DNA of 35,604 nt, taken from the NCBI GenBank assembly GCA_947038195.1, contig CAMQVI010000014.1:1-35604 (forward strand). Direction: 5' to 3'. Below the pieces are notes generated by a model. The model was not told the DNA's origin. It worked only from the letters and a program-made list of their open reading frames with translations, and did not search any database. Position numbers and translations under genes: made by a program. Positions 21,298 to 28,382 of this stretch are shown here, piece after piece. Origin of the DNA: an uncultured Brevinema sp. GTDB taxonomy: Bacteria > Spirochaetota > Brevinematia > Brevinematales > Brevinemataceae. Within the stretch, counting starts at the first letter, position 1. Each line of letters starts with the position of its first letter.

Positions 21298-21323
21298 AAC
21301 CCCCTTCGATTAAGAAGAGGGTA
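21298..21323 (-). terminator. Terminator of the nag-pts operon
   Basis: ACCCCCTTC pairs with GAAGAGGGT (one mismatch). On the minus strand a TTATTTTGTTTTT tail follows. It lies about ten bases after the ptsH stop. Confidence 0.65.
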
Positions 21324-21332
21324 TTGCGTTTA

Positions 21333-21596
21333 TTAGTCTTTTAGACTTGCAAAAAATTCTTCGAATTTTTTTGCTGCTCCATCTTCGTCTTTACCGTCGA
21401 TGTGGATTTTAATGGTATCACCTTTTTTAACGCCTAAAGACATTATTTGTAAAAGAGAAGCTGCGCGAATTTTTTTATCGCCTTTTTCAATTTCTACAGT
21501 GGTACCTTCTAAAGATTTTACGAATTTTACCAATTCGTTTCCAGGTCTTGTGTGCAAGCCTGTTTCATTTTTGATAGTGATTTCTATACATTTCAT
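21333..21596 (-). CDS. ptsH: PTS phosphocarrier protein HPr
   Basis: This 87-residue soluble protein passes phosphate from enzyme I to the sugar-specific IIA. The active-site His15 lies in NETGLHTRPG. The regulatory-serine region is RAASLLQIMSLGVKKGD, with Ser47 equivalent to Ser46, the HPr-kinase target in Gram-positives. The residues after the His-site Pro are unusual (GNELVKF instead of the common AAxFV). The length is normal. GGAG lies before the ATG. It is the last gene of the nag-pts operon, 30 bases after ptsI. Confidence 0.95.
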   Translation of the reverse strand: MKCIEITIKNETGLHTRPGNELVKFVKSLEGTTVEIEKGDKKIRAASLLQIMSLGVKKGDTIKIHIDGKDEDGAAKKFEEFFASLKD

Positions 21597-21626: not shown

Positions 21627-23366
21627 TTATCTATTTAATACTTTTTCTACAGATTCTGTAAGGAATTTTTTAATTTCTGCTCCAGAACCTATCGTTAAGA
21701 CTTTTTGGGCTATTTCTTTGGCCTCAGTCATCGTCGTAGCACGGACTATTTCTTTTACTTTAGGGATACTAATAGCACTCATACTAAGCTCTTTTATTCC
21801 AATACCCATAAGGAATAGCGTGGCAAGATGATTACCTCCTAATTCTCCACAAACGCCTACCCAAACTCCTTTAGCATTGGCAGCAGCCGTAGCTTGTGCC
21901 ATAAGTCTAAGGACAGCTGGATGGAAAGAGTCGTATAACTTTTCTATATGGGAATTACCACGATCTACCGCTAAGGTATACTGGGTAAGATCGTTAGTAC
22001 CATAACTAAAGAAATCGACAATATCTGCTAATTCATTAGCCATCATTGCTGCAGCAGGTGTTTCTATCATTACTCCTTTTTGGATATTAGGGTCAAAGGC
22101 AATCCCTTCTGCTGTTAATTCTTTTTTACACTCTTCTAAAATTTCATTAGCTTTTATTACTTCTTCTACAGATATTACCATAGGATACATAATTCCCGCT
22201 TTTCCACTAGCAGAAGAACGAAGGATAGAACGTAATTGAGTTTTAAAAATATCTACTTTATCAAGACATACTCTTAAAGCTCTCCAACCAAGGAAAGGAT
22301 TTTCTTCGTGAGGAAAAGCAAAATAATCTAAGCTCTTATCTCCTCCAATATCTAAAGTACGAATAATGACAAGATCTCCATCAAAAGCACGCACTACATT
22401 AGAATAAGCTATGGTTTGTTCTTCTTCTGAAGGCCAATTGGATCTATCCATGTAGAGAAATTCACTACGATAAAGCCCTACCCCTTTAGCACCTTGATCT
22501 AAAGCTGGTTTAGCGTCTATATCTGTACCAACATTAGCACAAAGATCCATATGCACTCCGTCTTTGGTGACAGCTGGTAACTCTTTTAGAGAAGCTAAAC
22601 GTGCTACTTCTTTTTGGTGAGCCTCTAATTTAGCTTTGTATATTTTTTCTTGTTCTTTATCTGGGTCAACAATAATATCCCCTGCAATAGCATCTAAGAT
22701 TATTTCTTGTCCATCTTGAACAAGGTTTAGAACACCTTTCGCTCCAACAATAGCAGGAATTACAAGGGTACGAGACATAATTGCCACATGGGAGGTCGCT
22801 CCACCTTCTGCTGTAACAAATCCTAAAACTTTTTGTTTGTCCATTTGTGCAGTATCAGAGGGTGTCAAATCAAAAGCAATGACAACAGATGGCTCTTCTA
22901 TTTCGGATAACTGGGGAATATGTATTCCTAAGATATTGGCAAGTAAACGTCTGAAAATATCTTTCATATCAGCAGATCTTTCTCTCATGTAAGCATCTTC
23001 CATAGTAGCAAACATTTCTCTGTATTGCTCACCTACTAGATAAGCCGCTTTATCAGCATACATAAGCTCATCTTTAATAAGGGTTCTGATTTCATCTTCC
23101 ACCCCTTCGTCAAGGAGAATTTCTAAATGTCCTTCAAAAATAGCAGCTTCATTAGGACCTATATTTTTCAAAGTGATCGCTTGAATTTTTTCTAGCTGTA
23201 GTTTAGCTTGTGCTCTTCCATCAATAAATAATTGTATTTCTCTTTCTACATCGGAAGTCTCAATATTTTCTTCGTTAATAACAATTTCTGGTTGAGCAAA
23301 GATAAAAGCCTTTCCTGAAACAACACCTGGACATGCTGAAATTCCTTTGATAACTTGCATACTCAT
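21627..23366 (-). CDS. ptsI: PTS enzyme I (phosphoenolpyruvate-protein phosphotransferase)
   Basis: This 579-residue cytosolic enzyme autophosphorylates from phosphoenolpyruvate and hands the phosphate to HPr. The phospho-histidine is His193 in EGGATSHVAIMSR. The PEP-binding C-terminal barrel shows GVGLYRSEFLYMDR, IIRTLDIGGDK, ENPFLGWRALR and FFSYGTNDLTQY, and the catalytic-Cys motif is VGVCGELGGN (usually CGELAGD). A GTG lies two codons upstream inside the ribosome site AAGGAG; the ATG at 23364-23366 is correctly spaced from it, so I use that start. It is 20 bases downstream of the NagB-NagA fusion, so EI and HPr synthesis is tied to the amino-sugar genes. Confidence 0.95.
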   Translation of the reverse strand: MSMQVIKGISACPGVVSGKAFIFAQPEIVINEENIETSDVEREIQLFIDGRAQAKLQLEKIQAITLKNIGPNEAAIFEGHLEILLDEGVEDEIRTLIKDELMYADKAAYLVGEQYREMFATMEDAYMRERSADMKDIFRRLLANILGIHIPQLSEIEEPSVVIAFDLTPSDTAQMDKQKVLGFVTAEGGATSHVAIMSRTLVIPAIVGAKGVLNLVQDGQEIILDAIAGDIIVDPDKEQEKIYKAKLEAHQKEVARLASLKELPAVTKDGVHMDLCANVGTDIDAKPALDQGAKGVGLYRSEFLYMDRSNWPSEEEQTIAYSNVVRAFDGDLVIIRTLDIGGDKSLDYFAFPHEENPFLGWRALRVCLDKVDIFKTQLRSILRSSASGKAGIMYPMVISVEEVIKANEILEECKKELTAEGIAFDPNIQKGVMIETPAAAMMANELADIVDFFSYGTNDLTQYTLAVDRGNSHIEKLYDSFHPAVLRLMAQATAAANAKGVWVGVCGELGGNHLATLFLMGIGIKELSMSAISIPKVKEIVRATTMTEAKEIAQKVLTIGSGAEIKKFLTESVEKVLNR

Positions 23367-23386
23367 TTCCACTCCTTGGATTTTTT

Positions 23387-25363
23387 TTATTTTTTTATTT
23401 CTTGATCTTCATAAGAGATATATTCTCCATTAACTACTACACCTTGAACGTATAGTTCTTGGTCAAGGATAGTAATATTAGCTTTATAGCCTTCTTTTAA
23501 ATAACCATATTCATCATCTTTTTTAATCGCACGGGCAGGGTAAAGAGATGCCATTCTAAAAGCATCTTCTAAGGGGACTTTGACATGATTTACAATATTT
23601 CTAACACATACGTCCATAAGTACAGCTACTCCAGCAAGAGTGCCATCTGCTGCGACACATTTACCATCTCTATGGTAGATTTTACGTCCACCAAACTCAA
23701 ATTCTTCTATGTCTGTACCTGCTGGTGCTGCTGCATCACTAACGAGAAAGAGATGATCGCCTAATGTTTTATAAGCTACATCGACAGAAGCATAGTTAAT
23801 ATGGATTCCATCCACAATAATTCCAGCATACATATTATCACTATCTAATACCGCACCTACCGCTCCAGGCTCTCTAGAGTCCATAGGGCTCATAGCATTA
23901 TATAAATGAGTCGCCATCACGACTCCATGAGGAATTTTTTCTTTTAATTGAGCATGAGTACCATTAGTATGTCCCATAGAAACAATAACACCAGCATCTG
24001 CTAATTTTTTGATGTCTTCTGCTGTGTTTTCTTCTGGTGCTAAGGTAACAATTTTCCTGTCTATTTTAGCATTAATAATAGCGTCTAACATCTCTTGAGA
24101 AGGTTTTCTAATATGTTCTATAGCATGGATACCTTTTTTCATTTTAGAAAGGTAAGGCCCTTCAAAATGCCAACAGATAATCCCTAAAACATCTTTATTT
24201 TCTATATGAGAAATAAGATTTATAGCTTCTAGGATTTTTTCATCGCTATTCGTGATGAAGGTAGGTGCATAACTAGTAACCCCATGTTTAAGATTAGTAT
24301 CGGACATTACTTGGAGAGCATCAAGGGATATATCATAATTAATATCAGCACCCCCACAACCGTTGACTTGAAGATCTATATAACCAGGAACAATAATTTT
24401 TCCTTTCATATCGATCTTAGTCATTACATCATCTGGTGATAACTCTAACTCTATAGATTTAATTCTATCATTTTCTATAATTACCGCAGCATTGTCAAGG
24501 AATTTTTCTCCATCAAATACCTTGGCATTAATGAGGGCATAGTAGGATTTATAAAGTCCCTTGACTAATATTTTAGGGTGAAGACTTTTAGCTTCAACTT
24601 CTTTATGATATCTATAAGTCCTTACTCTTATATCAGCAACAGCATCTTCATCAACAACAAAAGTAGCTTTTTTATGAAGCTGCATAGCGGAAGCAGGATA
24701 AATATGATTTATCCCCTCTTCTATACTAAGCTGCAAAGCTCGAGATTTACTCGCCCCTTGTACTAATACAAGGATTTCTCTTCCTTCCAAAAGAGTCCCT
24801 ATGCCTACTGTTAATGCTCTTGTAGGAACTAAATTAATGTCCCCATTAAAGAATTTAGCATTAGCTACACGGGTTTCAAAAGTTAGTTCTTTATCTCTTG
24901 TATGAGAACGAAGAGAGGAACCTGGTTCGTTGAAGGCTAAATGGGCATCATCACCCAATCCACAAACCCACAAATCAACACCACCATAAGACTTAATAAG
25001 CTCCTCATAGTCCGTACCTTCTTGTTTAACATTACTCGTTAGAGGATTTAATAAATGAATATTTTGAGCTTTAGCATCTACCCAATTAAAAAAACTAGCA
25101 TTAACAATGGAATGAAAGCTATGAATATTGGTCGTATCTATTCCTAGATATTCACCTGTATTAAAAAATACTACATTTTCAAAAGAAAGCACACCGTCTT
25201 TGTGAAATTCTACAAGGCGTTTGTACATAGGCTGTGCGGTTCCACCACCGGGGATACCTAAAACAAAAGGTTTTTCTTTAGTGGGGGCAAAATCTAGTAT
25301 TTTTTTTGCTATATAATAAGCAGCCCAATCTCCAACATGCTCTTCTGTAATAATTAGTCTCAT
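23387..25363 (-). CDS. Fused glucosamine-6-phosphate deaminase and N-acetylglucosamine-6-phosphate deacetylase
   Basis: This 658-residue protein joins NagB (about residues 1-250) to NagA (about 270-655). The order in the protein (deaminase then deacetylase) is opposite to the order of the reactions: GlcNAc-6-P to GlcN-6-P plus acetate, then to fructose-6-P plus ammonia. The NagA half looks complete: GYIDLQVNGCGGAD, metal ligands Glu401 (HFEGP), His465 (MGHTNGT) and His486 (THLYNAM), His521, and catalytic Asp543 (SDAAAPAG). In the NagB half, Asp139, His141 and Glu146 match E. coli Asp141, His143 and Glu148, but Gly70 (NTGEY) replaces catalytic Asp72. Arg156 and Lys158 of the allosteric site remain; Glu159 replaces Thr161. 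AGGAT precedes the ATG. A frameshift artefact is excluded because both halves share one uninterrupted frame. Whether the deaminase half is active is uncertain. Confidence 0.9.
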   Translation of the reverse strand: MRLIITEEHVGDWAAYYIAKKILDFAPTKEKPFVLGIPGGGTAQPMYKRLVEFHKDGVLSFENVVFFNTGEYLGIDTTNIHSFHSIVNASFFNWVDAKAQNIHLLNPLTSNVKQEGTDYEELIKSYGGVDLWVCGLGDDAHLAFNEPGSSLRSHTRDKELTFETRVANAKFFNGDINLVPTRALTVGIGTLLEGREILVLVQGASKSRALQLSIEEGINHIYPASAMQLHKKATFVVDEDAVADIRVRTYRYHKEVEAKSLHPKILVKGLYKSYYALINAKVFDGEKFLDNAAVIIENDRIKSIELELSPDDVMTKIDMKGKIIVPGYIDLQVNGCGGADINYDISLDALQVMSDTNLKHGVTSYAPTFITNSDEKILEAINLISHIENKDVLGIICWHFEGPYLSKMKKGIHAIEHIRKPSQEMLDAIINAKIDRKIVTLAPEENTAEDIKKLADAGVIVSMGHTNGTHAQLKEKIPHGVVMATHLYNAMSPMDSREPGAVGAVLDSDNMYAGIIVDGIHINYASVDVAYKTLGDHLFLVSDAAAPAGTDIEEFEFGGRKIYHRDGKCVAADGTLAGVAVLMDVCVRNIVNHVKVPLEDAFRMASLYPARAIKKDDEYGYLKEGYKANITILDQELYVQGVVVNGEYISYEDQEIKK

Positions 25364-25390: not shown

Positions 25391-26161
25391 TTAATTTTCA
25401 TAATGATTTATAGAAATCGCTTTACTCAATAATCGCCCTGCAACCTTATCTGCTAAAAAAACAGTGTTCCCATGAAGTTGAAAAATAGAGGCAGGATTCA
25501 TCTCTGATACACTTTCTTCTAAACAAGCTTTTAAGGCAAAAGCTTTTTGAACACCGTACACAACAATAAGCACCATTTTAGCATCAAAAATAGTCCCTAC
25601 GCCCATGGTGACGGCTTGGTGGGGGACAAGGGAAATATTATCCCCAAAAAAACGAGCATCGGCTTTGAGAGTTTCTGAGGTTAGGGTTTTCAAACGGGTG
25701 CGGGACTGGAGAGAAGAACCTGGCTCGTTAAAAGCTAAAGCTCCCGTAGTTCCTAGAGAACCCACAAAAAGATCCATTCCCCCATAACTATTAATTTTTT
25801 CTTCGTATAAATCACATTCTTTTACAGGATCTTCCACATTCCCATCAAGAGTAAATATATTATTTGGGTCAATATCTACTTTAGAGATGAATATTTCTTG
25901 TAAGAGGTTAAAGTAGTATTGCTTTGTTTTTTTAGAAAAACCTATATACTCTCCAGCATAAAAAATAACAACATTTTTTAAAGAAACCTCTCCTTTTTGC
26001 ACAAAAGTAACTAGAGCCTCACACACACTAAGCACCGTCGCACCTGTGGATAAACCCAATACAAAAATATTATCTTTAGGGTGGTCATTGATTTTTCGGA
26101 CAATTACTGCTACTGCGTTTTCAATGATTTCTGTTCTTTGAGATAGTACTTGAATTTTCAC
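25391..26161 (-). CDS. NagB-like protein lacking catalytic residues (putative pseudoenzyme)
   Basis: This 256-residue protein aligns end to end with glucosamine-6-phosphate deaminase: VLGLSTGATVLSV (phosphate loop), YEEKINSYGGMDLFVGSLG, AFNEPGSSLQSRTRLKTLTSET, ADARFFGDN and QAVTMGVGTIFDAK. Relative to E. coli NagB, catalytic Asp72 is Gly70, Asp141 is Thr139 and His143 is Ala141; only Glu148 (Glu146) remains. In contrast, the residues matching the GlcNAc-6-P allosteric site (Ser151, Ser152, Arg158, Lys160, Thr161) are all kept, as are the phosphate-binding Arg172 and Lys208 equivalents. The start is GTG, with AAGGAG five bases upstream. It is the first gene of the operon, 27 bases before the fusion. 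A sensing or regulatory subunit is the best inference; a changed enzyme activity is the alternative. Confidence 0.85.
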   Translation of the reverse strand: MKIQVLSQRTEIIENAVAVIVRKINDHPKDNIFVLGLSTGATVLSVCEALVTFVQKGEVSLKNVVIFYAGEYIGFSKKTKQYYFNLLQEIFISKVDIDPNNIFTLDGNVEDPVKECDLYEEKINSYGGMDLFVGSLGTTGALAFNEPGSSLQSRTRLKTLTSETLKADARFFGDNISLVPHQAVTMGVGTIFDAKMVLIVVYGVQKAFALKACLEESVSEMNPASIFQLHGNTVFLADKVAGRLLSKAISINHYEN

Positions 26162-26189
26162 TGAAACTCCTTTTAATAAACACTCTTAT

Positions 26190-26217
26190 ATTATATTACG
26201 CTATCATATTTTTGCAA
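26190..26217 (-). promoter_or_regulatory. Promoter of the nag-pts operon
   Basis: The minus strand has TTGCAA (26212-26217), a 16-base spacer and TATAAT (26190-26195), about 30 bases before the GTG start. It is back to back with the promoter of the IIA gene, with 41 bases between the two -35 boxes. Confidence 0.5.
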
Positions 26218-26323: not shown

Positions 26324-26803
26324 ATGTTTAATCTATTTAAAAAATCTCCCAAAGAGATAGAAATTTACGCACCCTTTGATGGAGAACTAGCGCCTTTATC
26401 ATCTTCCCCAGATGCAGCTTTTGCCGAAGGAATGATGGGGGAAGGTCTTTGTATGACACCTAGTAGTAATACCGTTTTTGCTCCTTTCGAATGTACGGTA
26501 GATATTTTTCATACCTTACACGCTGTAGGCTGTAGCAATGGTACCATAGAGGCTATCGTCCATGTGGGAATGGATACCGTTTCTCTTAAAGGAGAAGGAT
26601 TTACAGCTCTAGCTCCCTTACAAGGTAAGGTAGATACTAAAACCCCTCTTATATCTTTTGATAAAGAAGTCTTATTATCTAAGGTAAGCACTCTTATCAC
26701 CCCTATTATCATCACAGATAAACCTGATTCAGCAAAATTAGAAATCATTAAAACTTCTGGTTCTGTTAAACAGGGAGATCTTATTATGAAAGTTATCCTA
26801 TAA
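26324..26803 (+). CDS. crr: PTS glucose-type IIA protein (IIA-Glc)
   Basis: This 159-residue soluble phosphocarrier accepts phosphate from HPr and donates it to a IICB permease. Family features: IYAPFDGELAPL, DAAFAEGMMGEGLCMTPSSN, active-site His80 in IVHVGMDTVSLKGEGF and the supporting His66 in HTLHAVG. It stands alone and is not fused to a permease, and is the natural partner of the IICB at 17909-19450. It is transcribed divergently from the nag-pts operon that makes HPr and EI. A weak ribosome site (GCGAGG) precedes the ATG. IIA-Glc also regulates transporters in some bacteria; nothing here shows this. Confidence 0.94.
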   Translation: MFNLFKKSPKEIEIYAPFDGELAPLSSSPDAAFAEGMMGEGLCMTPSSNTVFAPFECTVDIFHTLHAVGCSNGTIEAIVHVGMDTVSLKGEGFTALAPLQGKVDTKTPLISFDKEVLLSKVSTLITPIIITDKPDSAKLEIIKTSGSVKQGDLIMKVIL

Positions 26804-26897: not shown

Positions 26898-28382
26898 TTA
26901 CTTACCACTTCTACGCCAAACTTGTTCTTTTTCCCAGAGTTGATTATAGTAATAGCCTTTTTTACTGAGATTTTCTTTATTTTCATCAGGAAGAGGAACA
27001 TAACGCCAAAATACATAACGACAATCTTGTTCGAGTTTTTGTACCCCTTGAGTTTCTTTTGCCATCCATGTAAGGTAATCGCTAATGAACATAAGCCTCA
27101 AGTCTCCCTTTAGCTTAGCAGCTAGAGAGTATTCATAGTAATTTCCTGTAAGACCTTCTTCCATCCAATAGTAAGACGCCATTTCTTTAGCTGCTTGCCA
27201 ACGAATATCCCCAATAGCTGTAAGAAGAGATAAATCTGGAGATTTAGTGAAAATAGGTAAGGTAATTCGACCACGTCCAAATTGTTTATTGTTCGAATCT
27301 AAAGGCTCCCAACAAGATCCTGTTGCACCATAGCCAGGAACTAAAATCATATAAGGCATAATGTGCATTTCTTCGCCTTTGTAAATACGAGTAAAAGCCT
27401 GAGGGTCTAAAGTAAGCCATTTGTTTAATTTATTTTTTACCATCTCTCTAAAAAGATAGTCTTTTGTTTCTCTAGGCATAAAACCAGAGGTGAGGAAGGG
27501 AAAGGCATTGCCTTGACGGCCTACAGTCATTTTAGCCATTTGTCTTATATTTAGGACTTCACTAGCCACACCCTCTCTATTGGTAGGGGCTCCATAAGAG
27601 ACATCCCCCTCCCCACTACTGCGACCAGAAGCCTCAGCCTCTTGTTCTCTAATATCGTCGAGGGTTTGTTGTGCTTTAAACATCGTGCGAGCACAGGCTA
27701 GCATCTCTTTATTATATTTTTTAATTTCTTTATGTTGAAATACTATCTCGTCTAAGGATTTAAGTTGTGTGTTATCGGGAATTACATAACCCATTTCGAC
27801 ATCTTCGATTTCTTCTTTTAAATGGCTAGCACATTGTATTATTCGTTCTATACTTTCATCACGAGATTGTTTAAAAGAATAATATCTACCTTTTTCTACA
27901 CTTATAGTGGCAACGTATTTTTCTTGTTTAGCAGTAATTTCGTGAGCCTCTGGTGCCTTAGTTTTAGCCCCACCTCCTCCTGTTTCATCTCCAGCAGAAG
28001 CTTTGATTTTCCCCATAGATATCCCCTGCAACCACTCATCGGCATAAAAAATCGTCTCATTTTCGTAATCCACAGGAGCACTGGGTTGATTGAGGATAAA
28101 TTTTTGGTCTTCAGGGCTGAGATTTCGAAGGTCTGTTAAGCCATAACGGAGAAAAAGGCGTTTTGCCATGCTCATTTCAGGACCTATCACCTTAGCAACC
28201 ATTCCATACAGTTCCCAAAAAAGATTGGTAAGTTTATCCCTACTGAATCTTTTTTCCTCTTTATCTTTAGCTGTTTCATAGTCTTTTTTAGTGCTAAGAA
28301 ATCTCTCTACAAAAGCCTCATCTATACCTATCAGTAATTTTTTAATATAACCATTTTCTGGCAATTCATCATATAAACTCAT
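26898..28382 (-). CDS. Uncharacterised large cytosolic protein
   Basis: This 494-residue protein has no signal peptide or membrane segment. I do not recognise its family. The N-terminal 130 residues are charged and helical (for example KKDYETAKDKEEKRFSRDK). A Gly-rich linker, ASAGDETGGGGAKTKAPE, at about 129-146 separates them from a helical middle (150-260), which ends in a second low-complexity stretch (EAEASGRSSGEGD). The C-terminal half (270-494) is rich in aromatic residues and looks folded: NAFPFLTSGFMPRETKDYLF, MHIMPYMILVPGYGATGSCWEP and IRWQAAKEMASYYWMEE. AAGGA lies eight bases before the ATG. The gene is monocistronic, convergent with crr and divergent from the surA-like gene. It could be a structural or regulatory protein specific to its lineage. 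Confidence 0.8.
   Translation of the reverse strand: MSLYDELPENGYIKKLLIGIDEAFVERFLSTKKDYETAKDKEEKRFSRDKLTNLFWELYGMVAKVIGPEMSMAKRLFLRYGLTDLRNLSPEDQKFILNQPSAPVDYENETIFYADEWLQGISMGKIKASAGDETGGGGAKTKAPEAHEITAKQEKYVATISVEKGRYYSFKQSRDESIERIIQCASHLKEEIEDVEMGYVIPDNTQLKSLDEIVFQHKEIKKYNKEMLACARTMFKAQQTLDDIREQEAEASGRSSGEGDVSYGAPTNREGVASEVLNIRQMAKMTVGRQGNAFPFLTSGFMPRETKDYLFREMVKNKLNKWLTLDPQAFTRIYKGEEMHIMPYMILVPGYGATGSCWEPLDSNNKQFGRGRITLPIFTKSPDLSLLTAIGDIRWQAAKEMASYYWMEEGLTGNYYEYSLAAKLKGDLRLMFISDYLTWMAKETQGVQKLEQDCRYVFWRYVPLPDENKENLSKKGYYYNQLWEKEQVWRRSGK

Follow-up and report, generated by a model that had tools for sequence, protein, structure and literature searches.

The deaminase NagB of Escherichia coli is a textbook allosteric enzyme, in which we take Asp72 to be essential for deamination, as established knowledge of NagB holds, and in which we also count Ser152 and Thr161 among the effector-site residues (E. 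coli numbering is used unless stated otherwise). Its effector cleft is built from two subunits, face A of one and face NC of its neighbor, with face A supplying most of the contacts to GlcNAc-6-P and face NC contributing the N-terminal amine and Tyr254 (PMC4008608). The residues that contact GlcNAc-6-P are Tyr121, Asp141, Glu148, Ser151, Arg158, Lys160, and Tyr254 (PMC4281351), and the C-terminal helix separates hexameric from monomeric NagBs (PMC9812318). The locus described here lies in a 35,604-nucleotide stretch of DNA from an uncultured Brevinema sp. (assembly GCA_947038195.1, contig CAMQVI010000014.1; hereafter the window), and it encodes in tandem a standalone pseudo-NagB of 256 aa, which we refer to as S, and a NagB-NagA fusion of 658 aa, which we refer to as F.

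With the allosteric hexameric NagBs (E. coli, Borrelia 3hn6, and human GNPDA1), the pair shares the fold (TM 0.91), an identity of ~41%, and the face A residues, and F also shares the N-terminus and Tyr254. Unlike these enzymes, both S and F have lost Asp72, S has also lost His143 and is without Tyr254 and the usual C-terminal helix, and in place of a homo-hexamer there are two tandem paralogues. The monomer-type NagBs (those of B. subtilis and S. mutans and, here, a further NagB of the Brevinema genome) belong to the same family and lack the C-terminal helix, as S largely does, but they are otherwise the opposite of S, with the active site intact and the effector residues gone (0/5).

Two other kinds of system are comparable in part. 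CggR is a NagB-like phospho-sugar sensor (Doan 2008, as cited in PMC8167557). What the CggR/SorC effector domains have in common with S and F is a NagB-fold domain that possibly binds a sugar phosphate without catalysis; unlike CggR and SorC, S and F contain no SorC/CggR-type N-terminal DNA-binding domain detectable by domain search, descend from a true NagB recently enough to retain 40% identity, and have NagA as their partner. Dead paralogues that modulate a relative in a mixed oligomer are exemplified by the small and large subunits of plant ADP-glucose pyrophosphorylase and by trypanosome AdoMetDC with its prozyme. The S-F pair differs from these in that the homologous domain of the partner also appears to be dead, and the live activity would be that of the appended, unrelated NagA. 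NagB-fold sensors such as CggR and dead regulatory paralogues are already known. In the literature searched, however, we found no description of two dead allosteric NagBs in tandem with NagA fused to one of them, and no paper dealing with NagB pseudoenzymes or with the present fusion of NagB to NagA.

The Standalone NagB Paralogue S

S is encoded by an intact open reading frame with a GTG start (positions 25391 to 26161 of the window, minus strand). Direct reading bears out the strong ribosome site reported in the initial annotation, an AGGAG located 5 nt before the start codon (26167 to 26171, minus strand), and a candidate sigma-70 promoter, TTGCAA-16-TATAAT, lies farther upstream as a match to the consensus (26190 to 26217, minus strand). 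Membership in the NagB family is indicated by Pfam Glucosamine_iso (PF01182, 2e-13), by a TIGR00502 score over the cut-off, and by matches to solved NagBs down to 2.7e-57. The AF2 model of S (pLDDT 86) has the NagB fold, with Borrelia NagB 3hn6 as the best PDB match (TM 0.91) and CggR effector domains as remote structural matches (CggR TM 0.50). A 6-phosphogluconolactonase assignment was rejected on score (TIGR01198, 48.8 bits versus a cut-off of 124.45).

Residue-by-residue alignment to E. coli NagB confirmed every one of the catalytic substitutions first noted by eye, with Asp72, Asp141, and His143 being Gly70, Thr139, and Ala141 in S, and likewise the retention of Ser151, Ser152, Arg158, Lys160, and Thr161 (S149, S150, R156, K158, and T159 in S); Glu148 and Tyr121 are retained as well. 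Because position 141 is Asn in 7/7 of the canonical third-copy NagBs discussed below, the change to Thr alone is not diagnostic and was set aside as a sign of a dead enzyme. The telling losses in S are, by alignment, those of Asp72 and His143, and both recur in orthologues from the same genus, the same family, and the Brachyspiraceae.

The proposal that the effector site was kept holds for face A but not for the other half of the cleft, where the Tyr254 position is Asn252; the C-terminal helix of S is short or diverged. Similarly, the phosphate contacts Arg172 and Lys208 are kept in S as R170 and K206, as had been stated, but are gone from the Brachyspiraceae orthologues, so that the core conserved across the aligned orthologues is Ser151, Ser152, Arg158, and Lys160, not Arg172 and Lys208.

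The NagB-NagA Fusion F

F starts 27 nt after the stop codon of S (23387-25363, minus strand). Alignment places its NagB-derived N-terminal domain at residues 1 to ~262 (24578 to 25363, minus strand), and a conserved linker, SLHPKILVKGLYK, which is the signature of the fusion (24548 to 24586, minus strand), connects it to a NagA (GlcNAc-6-P deacetylase) domain (23417 to 24541, minus strand). The HFEGPY, GHTNGT, THLYNAM, DGIH, and SDA motifs of the latter are intact, and F scores 370 bits against the NagA profile TIGR00221 (cut-off 225.65). Within these motifs, E401, H465, H486, H521, and D543 are the presumable metal-binding and catalytic residues. Because they are invariant in eight fusions, and because four of the searched genomes (G003, G026, G038, and G049) have no NagA over the cut-off other than the fusion, F is very probably a working deacetylase. 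The Brevinema source genome has three NagAs including the fusion, with free-standing NagA genes over the cut-off at C80:5498-6601 and C1:76696-77820.

According to the alignment, the NagB domain of Brevinema F carries the changes D72>G70, T41G, Y85F, R172K, and T161E, the first of which had been missed in the initial annotation, and it retains M1, R2, D141, H143 (H141 in F), E148, S151, S152, R158, K160, K208, and Y254. Since the NagB half of F has also lost Asp72, both members of the pair are, by their substitutions, NagBs that are dead or nearly so. The original suggestion of a pseudoenzyme that senses an amino-sugar phosphate, or that partners the fusion, is still the best kind of explanation, with the correction that F does not qualify as an ordinary deaminase for S to partner: its NagB domain is without Asp72 everywhere and without most of the active site in the Brachyspiraceae. 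Structural evidence was taken from the model of S alone, the prediction for the whole fusion (mean pLDDT 55.5) having been set aside.

The NagB-deacetylase-like fusion PRK02122 (NF002557) resembles F in that its NagB domain forms part of a longer protein, but differs by score, S and F reaching 179-180 bits versus its cut-off of 384, and F carries NagA. NagB-like frames of ~785 aa were also observed in other spirochetes, and these may belong to PRK02122.

Distribution, Origin, and Selection

The S-F pair was found in two more Brevinema species, in one more genus of the Brevinemataceae, and in the Brachyspiraceae, which belong to another class. A scan of 84,980 genomes for the fusion linker gave matches in uncultured Brevinema and in Brachyspira (B. 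hampsonii, B. alvinipulli, B. pilosicoli, B. innocens, B. catarrhinii, and other species) and none outside of these, using a linker pattern that would miss fusions with a different linker. The spacing between S and F is 9-48 nt in 16 loci. No S is present beside the intact F of Brachyspira catarrhinii (L095) and of G049, and in Brachyspira sp. G79 (L084:3521-4298) the S frame is interrupted after approximately residue 38. At all of these loci F keeps its full set of effector residues, which suggests that F can do without S. With S missing or broken in these few Brachyspira, it is unlikely that the two proteins depend strictly on a mixed oligomer.

In a tree of 49 proteins, the S sequences group together irrespective of family (96/92), and so do the F sequences (95/92). 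The resulting S and F clades are sisters at 72/88, a relation that is suggestive only, and are placed beside the E. coli-type NagBs, far from the third copy. The simplest history would be one duplication of an allosteric NagB, after which one copy was fused to NagA. S is under purifying selection, with dN/dS values of 0.15-0.27 in the Brevinemataceae and a median of 0.10 among close Brachyspiraceae, and the values for F are lower still. Given the intact frames, the dN/dS well below 1, and the conservation in two families, a pseudogene status of S was rejected in most lineages, in agreement with the earlier judgment that the gene is unlikely to be decaying; pseudogene status was accepted for Brachyspira sp. 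G79 alone, with its broken frame.

Residues Lost and Retained in the Two Families

Asp72 is lost in all S and all F. His143 is lost in all S, being replaced by A, E, E, or N in the Brevinemataceae and by T or I in the Brachyspiraceae, and is lost in Brachyspira F too. Little of the active site is left in either Brachyspira protein: F has lost the phosphate loop, His143, Glu148, and Lys208, and nonetheless the fusion persists; Tyr121 is lost in S and F alike; and the former active site of S is variable, with S, Y, N, or D at position 172 and Y, D, N, or E at position 43. Ser151, Ser152, Arg158, and Lys160, on the other hand, are present in every S and F at 25-45% identity, with the exception of one S that has Ala at 152.

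Retention was quantified over 99 sites at which eight canonical NagBs of the E. coli type do not vary, comprising 9 active-site, 5 face A, and 85 other sites. Mean retention of active-site, face A, and other sites, respectively, was 62, 96, and 64% for S in the Brevinemataceae and 24, 100, and 36% in the Brachyspiraceae; the corresponding values for F were 56, 80, and 70% and 12, 80, and 43%. Near-complete retention in the S of both families was observed at 5/5 face A sites, 0/9 active-site positions, and 18/85 other sites (enrichment p = 0.0005), and across all S and F at 4/5, 0/9, and 10/85 (p = 0.001), where the p-values assume site independence and, with few independent sites, are indicative only. 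The underlying totals, 26 S and 24 F, are a little too high, since a few Brachyspiraceae rows are fragments of the same gene. Within the Brevinemataceae alone, the 99-site test gave no significant enrichment of face A. The pattern is reversed in the third-copy monomer-type NagBs (face A 0/5, active site 8/9).

A Proposed Split Effector Cleft and Its Possible Role

The two halves of the E. coli-type effector cleft are distributed unequally over S and F. The face A residues S151, S152, R158, K160, and T161 are all kept in the S of all clades, bar one S152A, and four of them are kept in F, where position 161 carries E, K, or R. As for face NC, Met1, Arg2, and Tyr254 occur in 28/28 F sequences, but no S retains Tyr254, which is replaced by N, T, M, or A or falls in a gap. 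The S and F halves look complementary: a cleft formed by face A of S and face NC of F would be complete, whereas an S-S cleft would not. Since only the phosphate-gripping part is universal, with Tyr121 lost from both Brachyspira proteins and Glu148 from Brachyspira F, the ligand may not be GlcNAc-6-P, and in Brachyspira it may be another sugar phosphate.

Judging from these sequence patterns, the S-F pair probably has a sensing or regulatory function in place of deamination. Our preferred reading, to which we assign a probability of roughly 0.45, is that a non-catalytic, sugar-phosphate-binding NagB module is attached to NagA and that S is the partner subunit completing its cleft. The components of this reading differ in strength. 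Deaminase activity has very likely been lost, ligand binding has somewhat better than even odds, and a complex between S and F is favored to a similar, modest degree; these three, and regulation of NagA by the S-F module as well, are inferences from sequence. What the data show directly are the residues lost and retained, the conservation of S and F as closely spaced genes, their common origin, the purifying selection, and the intact motifs of NagA.

Under the preferred reading, S and the NagB domain of F would be two ancient paralogues of the E. coli-type, GlcNAc-6-P-activated NagB that have given up deamination, leaving it to the monomer-type NagB elsewhere in the genome. F would assemble via its NagB domain, like allosteric NagB, and face A of S (Ser149, Ser150, Arg156, Lys158, and Thr159) would dock on face NC of F (Met1, Arg2, and Tyr252). 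Binding of GlcNAc-6-P, or of a similar sugar phosphate, in the S-F cleft would shift the assembly, and the shifted assembly would tune or localize NagA, whose activity uses up this metabolite, with a possible link in Brevinema between NagA activity and the PTS proteins of the same operon. A more specific version, which we offer tentatively, is a metabolite sensor made from two dead NagBs with complementary half-sites, the phosphate-gripping face of S and the N-terminus/Tyr254 face of F, in which a sugar phosphate bound at the junction would control the deacetylase of F. Several considerations weigh against the preferred reading: F keeps its effector residues where S is missing or broken, Tyr121 and Glu148 are lost in Brachyspira F, a three-fold trimer is unable to alternate S and F strictly, and Brevinema F keeps D141, H143, E148, and K208, which makes weak activity conceivable.

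The dead NagB domains might instead be a scaffold only, holding NagA in a defined oligomer, with Ser151, Ser152, Arg158, and Lys160 kept as residues of the inter-subunit cleft and no ligand bound. Such a role would fit the loss of these four residues from the monomer-type NagBs, and also the loss from Brachyspira F of Tyr121, a sugar contact, and Glu148, a coupling residue. Nevertheless, retention at 25-45% identity is concentrated on the phosphate-binding Ser, Ser, Arg, and Lys, while most other canonical invariant sites have changed, and we consider a ligand-free scaffold somewhat unlikely.

The PTS Neighborhood

In the window, F is followed by ptsI, encoding PTS enzyme I (21627 to 23372, minus strand), and by ptsH, the last gene of the operon (21333 to 21596, minus strand), whose HPr-like product of 87 aa has an LHTRPGNE motif on direct reading and is matched by orthologues in the corresponding position of L033 and L034. 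A terminator-like hairpin comes after ptsH (21299 to 21322, minus strand), and crr, encoding PTS EIIA (Glc type), is the divergent neighbor upstream of S (26324 to 26803, plus strand). The order S-F-ptsI-ptsH with a divergent crr was found in the Brevinemataceae genomes read. At positions 26898-28382 (minus strand) the window encodes a 494-aa protein with no Pfam match, a clear homologue of which adjoins crr in another Brevinema genome (L033:2331-3794).

This arrangement would fit a role of S/F as a signaling partner that senses GlcNAc-6-P or the state of the PTS and, instead of NagA, controls another protein such as HPr, EI, EIIA, or the canonical NagB. The binding of NagB by HPr in E. coli (PMC8167557) points the same way, as does the NagB-like domain of CggR, a known phospho-sugar sensor that is among the structural matches. 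However, the flanks of S-F at the Brachyspiraceae loci are unrelated to those of the Brevinemataceae and include no PTS neighbors, so the pair persists without its neighbors, and its constant partner is NagA. The PTS neighborhood is thereby weakened as the defining partner, and control of PTS proteins or of the canonical NagB by S/F appears unlikely. In both Brachyspiraceae genera examined, a gene for a lipoprotein-like product of ~920 aa lies directly upstream of S-F (L036:971-3724 and L039:5723-8500).

A Third, Canonical NagB and Its Annotation

The Brevinema genome (2.03 Mb, 89% complete) encodes a third NagB on a separate contig (L003:1486-2235), which is canonical at D72, H143, and E148 and is missing all effector residues, the monomer-type pattern. 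A canonical NagB (LDEY, GPNGH, and FNEP type) was found in the pair-bearing genomes checked; in G001 (79% complete), S and F alone were found. Abundant NagA and NagB proteins, the latter possibly from any of the NagB copies, have been reported in one study of a Brachyspira proteome (PMC4955376). Against the NCBIfam nagB model, with a cut-off of 236.9, S scores 247.6, F 288.1, and the canonical third NagB 224.0. Automatic annotation of the Brevinema NagBs is thus likely inverted, with S and F labelled nagB and the canonical NagB just below the cut-off.

The score of Brevinema F above this cut-off, together with its D141, H143, E148, and K208, might be read as a sign that deamination survives in F, in Brevinema at least, through a substitute for Asp72. 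F would then be a bifunctional enzyme converting GlcNAc-6-P to Fru-6-P with S as its regulatory subunit, in line with the regulatory subunit suggested in the initial annotation. We find this improbable, as every F has D72>G, T41G, Y85F, and R172K are changed besides, the fusion persists in Brachyspira without the phosphate loop, H143, E148, and K208, and a canonical NagB is present. Recruitment of the pair for a different sugar-phosphate reaction, for which purifying selection and the inclusion of 6-phosphogluconolactonases in the fold family could be cited, is very hard to credit, since the residues of the former active site vary without constraint both from one family to the other and inside each, unlike a new active site, and the sequences of the two families revealed no newly invariant cluster of polar residues at that place.

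Implications

Pathway reconstructions of Brevinema likely assign deamination to the wrong genes, and the same check is deserved for Brachyspira. If the more specific reading of complementary half-sites in S and F is true, the S-F pair would be a heteromeric regulatory module whose allosteric site is split between duplicated, catalytically dead NagBs. The locus is an apparent natural experiment, in which the active site was deleted in two paralogues, the effector site was kept, and the module was joined to NagA, which acts one step earlier in the pathway. Should binding be demonstrated, the locus would provide a clean system for studying how an allosteric site outlives catalysis and comes to be shared between two paralogues.
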